Assembly: GCA_001724275.1 (NCBI GenBank) | Contig: MEDZ01000009.1 | Coordinates: 172,543-231,214, forward strand | From: Gemmatimonadetes bacterium SCN 70-22 | GTDB lineage: Bacteria > Gemmatimonadota > Gemmatimonadetes > Gemmatimonadales > Gemmatimonadaceae | DNA length: 58,672 nt | Direction: 5' to 3' | In this document: positions 4,330 through 35,407 of the stretch, one piece after another | Layout: the number at the start of each line of letters is the position of its first letter | Position numbering within the stretch: position 1 is the first letter of the stretch | Made by a program: the position numbers and the translations under genes | The notes under the pieces: model-generated | Seen by the model: the letters and a program-made list of their open reading frames with translations, nothing else | What the model was told of the DNA's origin: nothing | Databases searched by the model: none

Positions 4330-4495
4330 CCCCGGCATGACGAGGCGTGCGTCAGCGTCCCGTCGGGTGGACGCTCGTCGGGCGGCCGAAGATGCGGTCC
4401 ATCGTCGTCGCCATGGTCGGGCTCCACTGGCTGGACGCGACGAGTAGGGCGAAGTCCCGCGCAGGGGCGACGCCGGCGAGCGCATCGTACGCCCG

Positions 4496-5947
<1,452 letters not shown>

Positions 5948-7327: not shown

Positions 7328-10078
7328 ATGTCGAGCGACCCCATTACCGGCGTCTACAACGACGCATACATCGCTGAATTGTACGAGGCTTACCGGCGTG
7401 ATCCCGCGTCGGTCGAGGCCTCGTGGCGGCAGTATTTCCGCTTTGCCGAGGCGCTTGGCGGCGCCGGCGCGCCCATCGCAACGGCCCCGGTGGCCGTCGC
7501 ATCGTCGGACCCGGCCTACCTGCGCAAGGTGGCGGGGGCGGCGGCGCTGGCGCAGTCGATTCGCCAGTACGGCCACCTGGCCGTGCGCCTCGACCCGTTA
7601 GGCACTCCGCCGCCCGGGGCCATCGAGCTGACCCCGGAGTACCACGGGATCACCGAGGCCGACCTGGCCGAGGTCCCCGCCGCGGCGCTGGGGCTTCCCG
7701 GGGCGACGGCGGCCGATGCGACCGCGCGCCTGCGCGGGATCTACTCCTCGCGCCTGGCGCTCGAGCTGGGGCACATCGAGGAGGAGGGCGAGCGGGAGTG
7801 GTTCCGCAAGGTCCTCGAGCTGGACGGGCTCGATCTTGCCCTCTCGCCCGACGAGAAGAAGGCGGTGCTCGAGCGGCTGACCCAGGTGGACGGCTTCGAG
7901 CGCTTCATCGCGCGCGCCTACGTCAACGTGAAGCGCTTCAGCATCGAGGGGACCGACGCGATGGTCCCGATGCTCGATGCCGCCATCGACCAGGCGTCGC
8001 GGCTCGGGACGCGCGAGGTCGTGATCGGGATGGCGCATCGCGGGCGCATCAACGTCCTGGCGCACACCCTCGACAAGCCGTACGCGAAGATCTTCAACGA
8101 GTTCGACGGCAAGCACGCCGATCTCGGGAGCAGCGAGACGGGCGACGTGAAGTACCACCTCGGGGCGACGACCGAGAAGCGGTTCGCCGACGGTCGCACG
8201 GTGGGGGTCATGCTGGTCCCCAACCCGAGCCATCTCGAGGTGGTGAACCCGGTGCTGATGGGGGTGGCGCGCAGCCGCATTGCCGAGTTGGGGCACGGCG
8301 ATTCGGCGGTCCTCTCCGTGGCGATCCATGGCGACGCGGCCTTCCCGGGCGAGGGGATCGTGGCCGAGACGCTGAACATGTCCAAGCTGGCCGGCTTCCG
8401 GATCGGCGGGACGCTGCACATCATCGCGAACAACCAGGTGGGCTTCACGACCAACCCGTCGGACTCGCGCTCGACGTACTATGCGAGCGACCTGGCCAAG
8501 GGGTTCGAGATTCCGATCGTGCACGTGAACGCCGACGATGCCGAGGCGTGCGTGGCCGCGGTGCGGCTGGCGATCATGTACCGCGCGGCGTTCGGGAAGG
8601 ACTTCCTGATCGACCTGGTGGGGTACCGGCGCTGGGGGCACAACGAGGGCGACGAGCCCACGTACACGCAGCCGGCGCTGTACGCCAAGGTGCGGCAGCA
8701 CCCGACCCCGCGACAGCTCTGGGCCAAGCGGCTGGTGGGGGAGGGGGTGGTGAGCGCCGACGAGGTGGAGGCGCTCGACAAGCAGCTGCAGGACCGCTTT
8801 GACGAGATCCTGGCCGAGTCACGGCGCGAGGTGACGCTGGAGGGCGAGGATCAGGAGCCGCTGAAGCCGACGCCGACGTCGATTCCGGCGGTGGACACGT
8901 CGGTGCGCCGGGAGACGCTGGTGGCGCTCAACGAGCGCCTGCTCATCTGGCCGTCCGACTTCACGCCGCACCCGCGCCTGGCCAAGCAGCTGGAGCGCCG
9001 GCGCGAGGCACTGGGCGACGCCGGCGGGATCGACTGGGGGCACGCCGAGGCGCTGGCGTTCGCCTCGCTGGTCAGCGAGGGGGTCCACGTCCGGATCACG
9101 GGCCAGGACGCCGAACGCGGGACGTTCACCCACCGCCACGCGGTGCTCAACGACGTCAACACGGGCGCGAAGTACGCGCCGCTGCAGCACATCCCCAACG
9201 CCCTGGGGCGCTTCGAGATCTACAACTCCCCGCTGAACGAGATGGGGGTGCTGGGCTTCGAGTACGGGATGGCGACGGCCGCGCCGGAGGCGCTCGTGCT
9301 GTGGGAGGCGCAGTTCGGCGATTTCGCCAACATGGCGCAGCCGATGATCGACCAGTTCATCGCCGCCGACCGCGCCAAGTGGGGACAGGACTCGGGGGTG
9401 GTGCTCCTCCTCCCGCACGGCTACGAGGGGCAGGGGCCCGAGCATTCCTCGGCGCGCCTCGAGCGCTTCTTGCAGCTGTGTGCCGAAGGGAACCTGCGGG
9501 TGGCCTATCCCTCCACGTCGGCGCAGTACTTCCACATCCTGCGCCGGCAGGCGCGGCTCGCCATTCGCCGCCCGCTGGTGCTGATGCAGCCCAAGAGCAT
9601 GTTGCGCCTGGCGGCTGCCACCTCGCACCTCGACGACCTGGCACAGGGGCGCTTCTTCCCGGTGATCGACGACCCGCAGGTCACCCGGCGCGAGGAGGTC
9701 ACGCGCCTGGTCTTCTGCACCGGGAAGCTCTACTACGAGCTGGTGGCCCGCGATCACCCGTCGCACCTGGCGGTGGTGCGCGTGGAACAGCTCTATCCGT
9801 GGCCGCACGAGGATGTCTCGCGCGTGGTCGACCTGTACCCCAACATCGCCGAGATCGTCTGGGCGCAGGAGGAGCCGAAGAACATGGGGGCCTGGAGCTA
9901 CGTCGCCCCGCGCCTTCGCGCCTCGGCCGGCAACGCGCTGATCATCCGCTACATCGGACGCCCGGAGCGCGCGAGCCCGGCCGAAGGGTACGCCTCGTCG
10001 CACGCGGTCGAGCAGGCCCGCATCGTGGGCGACGTGCACGCCCAGCCGATCATTCCGCGGCGGTCCATCGCGAGATAG
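7328..10078 (+). CDS. sucA: 2-oxoglutarate dehydrogenase E1 component
   Basis: 916 residues, close to the 933 of E. coli SucA. The N-terminal E2-binding segment (residues 1-45, NDAYIAELYEAYRRDPASVE, WRQYF) is present. The thiamine diphosphate region contains GMAHRGRINVLAH, HGDAAFPGEG and NNQVGFTT, and the transketolase-like second half has YNSPLNEMGVLGFEYGMA and GYEGQGPEHSSARLERFLQL. The protein decarboxylates 2-oxoglutarate and passes the succinyl group to the SucB lipoyl domain in the TCA cycle. SucB and Lpd are not in the window, so sucA stands alone. A strong hairpin follows 55 bp after the stop. Confidence 0.97.
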   Translation: MSSDPITGVYNDAYIAELYEAYRRDPASVEASWRQYFRFAEALGGAGAPIATAPVAVASSDPAYLRKVAGAAALAQSIRQYGHLAVRLDPLGTPPPGAIELTPEYHGITEADLAEVPAAALGLPGATAADATARLRGIYSSRLALELGHIEEEGEREWFRKVLELDGLDLALSPDEKKAVLERLTQVDGFERFIARAYVNVKRFSIEGTDAMVPMLDAAIDQASRLGTREVVIGMAHRGRINVLAHTLDKPYAKIFNEFDGKHADLGSSETGDVKYHLGATTEKRFADGRTVGVMLVPNPSHLEVVNPVLMGVARSRIAELGHGDSAVLSVAIHGDAAFPGEGIVAETLNMSKLAGFRIGGTLHIIANNQVGFTTNPSDSRSTYYASDLAKGFEIPIVHVNADDAEACVAAVRLAIMYRAAFGKDFLIDLVGYRRWGHNEGDEPTYTQPALYAKVRQHPTPRQLWAKRLVGEGVVSADEVEALDKQLQDRFDEILAESRREVTLEGEDQEPLKPTPTSIPAVDTSVRRETLVALNERLLIWPSDFTPHPRLAKQLERRREALGDAGGIDWGHAEALAFASLVSEGVHVRITGQDAERGTFTHRHAVLNDVNTGAKYAPLQHIPNALGRFEIYNSPLNEMGVLGFEYGMATAAPEALVLWEAQFGDFANMAQPMIDQFIAADRAKWGQDSGVVLLLPHGYEGQGPEHSSARLERFLQLCAEGNLRVAYPSTSAQYFHILRRQARLAIRRPLVLMQPKSMLRLAAATSHLDDLAQGRFFPVIDDPQVTRREEVTRLVFCTGKLYYELVARDHPSHLAVVRVEQLYPWPHEDVSRVVDLYPNIAEIVWAQEEPKNMGAWSYVAPRLRASAGNALIIRYIGRPERASPAEGYASSHAVEQARIVGDVHAQPIIPRRSIAR

Positions 10079-29773: not shown

Positions 29774-29853
29774 CACGGAGGGGCACGGGGGGACGCGGAG
29801 GTATGCAGCGGCGTCCATTCGTGTCCCTCCGTTTCCCTCCGTTACCCTCCGTG
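29774..29853. terminator. CCCTCCGT repeats forming a long imperfect hairpin
   Basis: Three 10-bp units containing CCCTCC (29821-29850) can fold back on the upstream CACGGAGGGG region; the outer 9-bp stem pairs 29774-29782 with 29845-29853. It lies between the convergent DUF3179 and AhpD-like genes, so termination is a plausible role. Confidence 0.45.
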
Positions 29854-29871: not shown

Positions 29872-30522
29872 TCACCGCCCCAGCTGCTTCCTGAGGACTA
29901 TATCCCCCGGCGGCGCATACCCATGCGCCTTCATCCGCTCGCCAGACATCGCATACGCCTCCGCCCCCATGTCGCTCACCCCCGTCCCATCGATCCACCG
30001 GTTGTAGAAGTTGAACAGGGCACAGACGGTGACGGCGTCGTAGATGGCCTCCTCGCTCCACCCGGCCGCCTTCACCCGGTCCACGTCACCCTGCCCGACC
30101 GTGTTGCAGCTGGCGTTGACGGTGTCGAGGAAGGCGAACAGGACCTTCCACGCATCCTCGATGGGGGCGGTGCGATAGTCGGCGAGGACGGCGTCGACCA
30201 GCGCCTGGTCTTCGAGCAGCGTCGCCGCGACCGCGGCGTGCGACCCCGTTCAGAAGTCGCAGTCGTTGCGCTTCGAGGTCAGCGCCGCGATCAGCTCGCG
30301 CAGTCCCGCCGACAGCGGCGACGCCCCGCGCATCACCCCCTGCGTGAAGTGGGCCAGGAAATCCGTGCGGTCGGGCTTGTAGGCGAACAGGTGCCAGATC
30401 TGCGGCATCGGCTTCCCCTGCGCGCGCATCAGGGCGATCCGGTCGCCGTAGGTTCCCTTGCCGGCCCCCTGCTCGACCTCCGCGAGATACATCGGGTGCA
30501 TGGACACGTGGGTTGAGGACAT
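29872..30522 (-). CDS. AhpD-like (carboxymuconolactone decarboxylase family) peroxidase, predicted selenoprotein
   Basis: One reading frame of 216 residues interrupted only by a TGA at 30250-30252. From ATG 30522 (MSSTHVSMHPMYLAEVEQ) the residues read RELIAALTSKRNDC, D, F, UGA, T, G, S, H. This is the AhpD signature E-x11-C-x2-C-x3-H (Glu76, Cys88, position 91, His95) with UGA exactly at the second cysteine. Downstream the frame stays open for 125 codons of family-like sequence (AFLDTVNASCNTVGQGDVDR; FNFYNRWIDGTGV). A hairpin with a GGUC loop follows the UGA. I read position 91 as selenocysteine, a peroxide-reducing CxxU site. GTG 30537 is an alternative start. Sequencing error or pseudogene remain possible; selA/B/C/D are not in the window. 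Confidence 0.85.
30223..30238 (-). promoter_or_regulatory. Predicted bacterial SECIS hairpin
   Basis: In the mRNA, 6 bp (CGCCGC / GCGGCG) close a GGUC tetraloop whose first G is 18 nt after the UGA. Bacterial SECIS elements lie directly downstream of the UGA with guanines at the start of the loop, and the E. coli fdhF loop also contains GGUC at nearly the same distance. The loop and spacing are seen; the SelB-binding role is inferred. Confidence 0.7.
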
Positions 30523-35050: not shown

Positions 35051-35407
35051 TCAGGGAATCGAGGCCGCAGGGATGAGCCGCGCGGCCCGCGCCGCGGCGA
35101 CCAGCCGGGCCATGCGCGTCGCCTCGGCCGCGGCCGCCTTCCGACCGAGCGCGGTGAGGGCGTAGTAGCGGCGCCGCTCGTCGCCCCCGTCGTCGGCGGG
35201 GCGCCGCTCGATGGGCGTCACCAGCCCCTCCTGCACCAGGCGGTGGAGGGCGCGGTACAGCGTCCCCGTCTCCAGCCGTATCGCCCCCTGTGATCGGGAC
35301 TCCGTCTCCTGGATGATGGCGTAGCCGTGACGCTCGCCGGGGGCGAGGGTGAGGAGGATCTCGAACTCGACGGGGCGGAGCGGGAGGTGGTCGCGGAGCG
35401 GTGGCAT
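35051..35407 (-). CDS. PadR family transcriptional regulator
   Basis: 118 residues from ATG 35407 (MPPLRDHLPLRPVEF). The winged-helix PadR pattern is clear: FEILLTLAPGERHGYAIIQETE, then LETGTLYRALHRLVQEGLV and ERRRYYALTALGRKAAAAE. PadR proteins are dimeric repressors that sense small molecules or membrane stress. It heads an operon with the ADOP permease, an arrangement common in Acidobacteria and Gemmatimonadota, and probably represses it. A near-perfect inverted repeat lies just upstream. Confidence 0.92.
   Translation of the reverse strand: MPPLRDHLPLRPVEFEILLTLAPGERHGYAIIQETESRSQGAIRLETGTLYRALHRLVQEGLVTPIERRPADDGGDERRRYYALTALGRKAAAAEATRMARLVAAARAARLIPAASIP

Follow-up and report, generated by a model that had tools for sequence, protein, structure and literature searches.

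Does the TGA codon that stands in place of the second redox cysteine of an AhpD-like gene encode selenocysteine (Sec), and what would the resulting enzyme do? The gene, here termed AhpD-U, lies at 29872..30522 on the minus strand of the window, the whole stretch of 58,672 nt that was analyzed, and specifies 216 residues with Sec at position 91. Considering the conserved TGA, the presence of Sec machinery, purifying selection, a covarying hairpin, linkage to sel genes and the fold, we are almost certain that it encodes a CxxU selenoprotein of the AhpD-like type (carboxymuconolactone-decarboxylase, CMD, fold; TIGR01926), as the preliminary description of the locus had predicted.

Gene structure and protein family

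The in-frame TGA, codon 91, occupies 30250..30252 (minus strand) within the active-site segment E76-x11-C88-x2-U91-x3-H95 (30238..30297, minus strand), whose string ELIAALTSKRNDCDFUTGSH fits the pattern E-x11-C-x2-U-x3-H exactly. The earlier statement that the AhpD signature is complete save for TGA at the second Cys is thus precise, and the strand, which had been left unstated, is minus. The frame was also said to be family-like on both sides of the TGA and open for 125 further codons, which agrees with our data: the gene runs on to a terminator TGA at 29874-29872, the read-through protein matches Pfam CMD in a profile search and scores 96 bits on the NCBIfam model TIGR01926 'peroxidase-related enzyme' (curated cut-off 81.8), and the codon-position GC pattern is equal on both sides of codon 91. 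At high GC, a simple model gives an open stretch of 125 codons a chance of ~7%, so that, taken alone, the stretch is weak evidence of recoding, and the strength of the sequence argument rests on comparison.

The choice of start codon is uncertain. ATG 30522 is preceded by a Shine–Dalgarno-like AGCAGGT, and an alternative ATG at 30501 (Met8) corresponds to the position at which 58 of the 110 homologous loci begin. Scanning the window for coding-like TGA readthroughs returned AhpD-U and two other sites, both of which were rejected: the TGA at 35053 is an ordinary stop separating two genes, and the site at 8821 has an odd composition.

Conservation of the TGA codon

Relatives were gathered by a protein search in 198 related genomes together with a scan of named genomes, yielding 110 aligned loci from Gemmatimonadota, Acidobacteriota, Myxococcota and others, with a few genes represented twice because both collections contained them. 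Codon 91 is TGA in 109 of these loci and TGC, encoding Cys, in one (L070); neither TAA, TAG nor a frameshift was found at this codon among the close homologues aligned. The E, C and H of the signature are retained in 110/110, so that the active-site segment is constant apart from the single U-to-C replacement, and its columns in the protein alignment are invariant. Cys also occupies the Sec91 position in the solved relatives 2pfx, 6k40 and 2prr.

The TGC codon in L070 implies that Cys is workable at position 91, as would be expected if AhpD-U were a pseudogene or if a sequencing error had turned a Cys codon (TGC/TGT) into TGA. Such an origin has a negligible probability and is in effect refuted by the conservation of TGA in 109/110 loci; it is further opposed by the conserved, covarying hairpin described below and by constraint on the downstream half of the gene. 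Among three congeners, dN/dS amounts to 0.13-0.22 after the TGA and 0.04-0.07 before it, indicating from the substitution pattern that the downstream sequence is under purifying selection.

SelA co-occurs with the TGA codon, being present in 66/73 genomes with TGA-bearing matches vs 79/125 others (p 1e-5). Two strong TGA carriers that gave no SelA match, both assembled in many contigs, contain SelB. When SelA was checked via the loci in seven genomes, it was present in five Sec carriers and also in the genome with the Cys form, and absent in Roseisolibacter H3M3-2, the locus of which equals that of G044, a genome that has SelB.

The related genomes also contain weaker CMD-domain matches (E 1e-11 to 1e-37, ~25-45% identity), many of which have exactly one TGA; several AhpD-like selenoprotein subfamilies therefore seem common in the phylum.

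The SECIS hairpin

A 6-bp hairpin with a GGUC loop had been noted, its loop 18 nt after the UGA, and likened to bacterial SECIS elements. It is present at 30223..30238 (minus strand), with a CGCCGC/GCGGCG stem (5' arm 30238-30233, 3' arm 30228-30223) and the loop GGUC at 30232-30229. The loop begins at the 18th base past the UGA, and the stem pairs bases 12-17 with bases 22-27. The outer loop bases G and C act as a seventh pair, leaving GU. What characterizes a bacterial SECIS is a hairpin immediately following the UGA whose small apical loop includes a G, and the assignment of the present hairpin as such is borne out by the alignment, by pair counts with controls and by codon freezing. The stem is kept in nearly all homologous sequences; including the loop-closing pair, 99.1% of cells are paired, with two-sided changes in 4/7 pairs. 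These two-sided changes comprise 35 cells, vs 7.8 in shuffles, and all slid registers are worse, with far lower values. The loop-closing G-C is replaced by A-U in 25/93 sequences, and the loop types (GGUC 81, AGUU 21, AGGU/GGGU/GGGC 7) imply that loop bases one and four change together.

Codon usage within the hairpin is frozen in comparison with the rest of the same genes, with GCY at A5 (83/0), GCR at A6 (88/0) and GTY at V7 (82/0); the p values for this freezing of Ala and Val codons, 1e-16 to 1e-27, are inflated because the sequences are related. The Cys homologue L070 has GCC at the A6 codon, a codon found there in no Sec gene, and this one case would fit decay of the SECIS in L070. The fold energy of the single-sequence hairpin is ordinary (z -0.56 and -1.50). 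An Rfam scan of the whole window returned no match, a negative that is no argument against so short an element as a bacterial SECIS. In the E. coli SECIS, the loop contains G23 and U24 and the stem a bulged U17 (PMC8659212); the GU of the present hairpin lies at almost the same distance from the UGA, whereas the bulged U17 is absent here.

Selenocysteine machinery and genomic context

The preliminary description had proposed a search of the same genome for selA, selB, selD and tRNA-Sec, and all four are found in the source genome (4.7 Mb, 99.98% complete). SelA scores 528 bits, SelB 313 bits and SelD 384 bits, and the tRNA-Sec gene, with anticodon TCA (UCA), adjoins selD. These genes are located on contigs other than that of AhpD-U. 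SelD has an in-frame TGA of its own at the active site (CAGUAAK; L017, G000:C53 11412-12332), so the source genome contains at least one further selenoprotein gene.

The continuation of the frame beyond the UGA is also what would be seen if Cys or Trp were inserted instead of Sec, be it through an altered code or by a suppressor tRNA. AhpD-U itself, and likewise 45/110 homologues, terminates in TGA, the genome encodes a genuine tRNA-Sec along with SelA, SelB and SelD, and simple reassignment would not predict the constraint on the hairpin; on these grounds we rejected reassignment, to which we assign only a minute chance. Recoding of UGA as Sec at codon 91 is strongly supported by the combined comparative and genomic data.

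In the window, the upstream neighbor of AhpD-U is malQ (GH77); a convergent DUF3179 gene adjoins it as well, and this DUF3179 neighbor recurs in seven Gemmatimonadota loci. The intergenic segment between the convergent DUF3179 gene and AhpD-U (29774-29853) contains a 10-base repeat of the CCCTCCGT type in inverted arrangement; the arms of the inverted repeat are 28-32 nt long and 75-82% complementary, and the element is possibly a terminator or REP-like. In 18 acidobacterial loci, including L089, L095, L104 and L127, AhpD-U is immediately followed on the same strand by a gene for an MFS transporter.

In two genomes, G018 and G032, the AhpD-U homologue shares a single block of ~5-6 kb with selA, selB, selD and tRNA-Sec, a complete selenocysteine block (L133, G018:C4:449000-463000; L134, G032:C1:726000-742000). 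A search for SelA, SelB and SelD around the retrieved loci revealed linkage in these two genomes only, so the arrangement is not general. In the tree, acidobacterial sequences make up most of the part that contains the copy in the G032 block and a second copy from G018, a placement that suggests possible transfer. No other selA match occurs in the genome besides that of the block (L133/L134 entry), which scores 436 bits vs ~530 in most relatives. A further AhpD-like gene, distinct from the first, is present in L134 and likewise has an in-frame TGA (ACTF*TNAH, ~4336-4917).

Fold and proposed mechanism

An AlphaFold2 model of AhpD-U, built with an alignment of 47 homologues, has a pLDDT of 93.6 and an AhpD-like all-helical fold. 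Its best matches in the PDB, 2prr (E 5.7e-9), 6k40, 3c1l (TM 0.73) and 2pfx, are peroxidase-related AhpD proteins. In AhpD, the CxxC pair together with Glu and His forms the proton relay for peroxide reduction (PMC3141380). In AhpD-U, SelB docked on the hairpin that spans nt 12-27 after the UGA would deliver Sec-tRNA(UCA) to a ribosome that reaches codon 91, and translation would then run for the remaining 125 codons. Sec91 stands in for the second Cys of the CxxC pair. By analogy with AhpD, its selenolate would probably attack the hydroperoxide and Cys88 would resolve the resulting selenenic acid to a selenenylsulfide, with Glu76 and His95 serving as proton relay and a dithiol system of the cell re-reducing the enzyme.

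The same Cys-Sec pair could instead serve reductive dehalogenation or general disulfide/selenenylsulfide reduction, since CMD-fold proteins do other chemistry, the debrominase Bmp8 (6ohi/6ohj) having the same fold, and the solved TIGR01926-like proteins are mostly uncharacterized; the MFS transporter gene downstream in the 18 acidobacterial loci would also accord with such a role. The complete E-C-U-H relay agrees with AhpD (PMC3141380), and the closest structures are peroxidase-related proteins, which makes a selenoprotein of non-peroxidase function possible but rather unlikely. A peroxidase role of AhpD-U is the moderately probable assignment, judging from these analogies.

Discussion

AhpD-like CxxU selenoproteins were found in the Sargasso Sea in 2005 (PMC1088965), counted again in 2008 as GOS AhpD-like 1/2 (PMC2398784) and entered in a 2026 review as 'AhpD-like protein, TIGR01926, CxxU' (PMC13188914). 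The preliminary description was right that the class is known, and its suggestion that a member from this lineage and context may be undescribed overrated the novelty, given the 2005 report and the review entry. AhpD-U has in common with these proteins the CMD-type family, the TIGR01926 profile, Sec at the second redox position of CxxU and a SECIS directly after the UGA with G in the apical loop; the review, which gives MCB9421940.1 as an example, lists the same profile and motif. The published sets come mainly from marine metagenomes, whereas AhpD-U belongs to a Gemmatimonadota genome, with its close set in Acidobacteriota and Myxococcota. Among the papers searched, we found no description of AhpD-like CxxU selenoproteins in Gemmatimonadota or Myxococcota, which is a gap in description, the kind of protein being already known.

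The alkylhydroperoxidase-related (seleno)protein CFYUT (NF041238) likewise has CxxU in a CMD domain but represents a different subfamily, as AhpD-U scores 41.7 bits on this profile, far below the cut-off of 175. AhpD of Mycobacterium tuberculosis shares the E-x11-C-x2-[C/U]-x3-H relay on two helices and has Cys where AhpD-U has Sec; its global structural match is weak (1gu9, E 0.5) because the catalytic helix pair is located elsewhere in the chain (PMC3141380).

Gene callers that treat every stop codon as a terminator would split such genes in two. The comparison gives good support to a family of Sec enzymes that is present in Gemmatimonadota, Acidobacteriota and culturable Myxococcota (Myxococcus, Corallococcus). 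Its SECIS core, in most cases an RGUY loop whose closing pair covaries, is superimposed on the coding sequence of a conserved SHAAVAA peptide. More tentatively, and with less than even confidence, the family may be a core client able to travel with the Sec trait, in some Gemmatimonadota as part of a block of possibly acidobacterial origin; given that AhpD-U occurs there within a complete sel block, a genome may gain Sec decoding jointly with a substrate for it.
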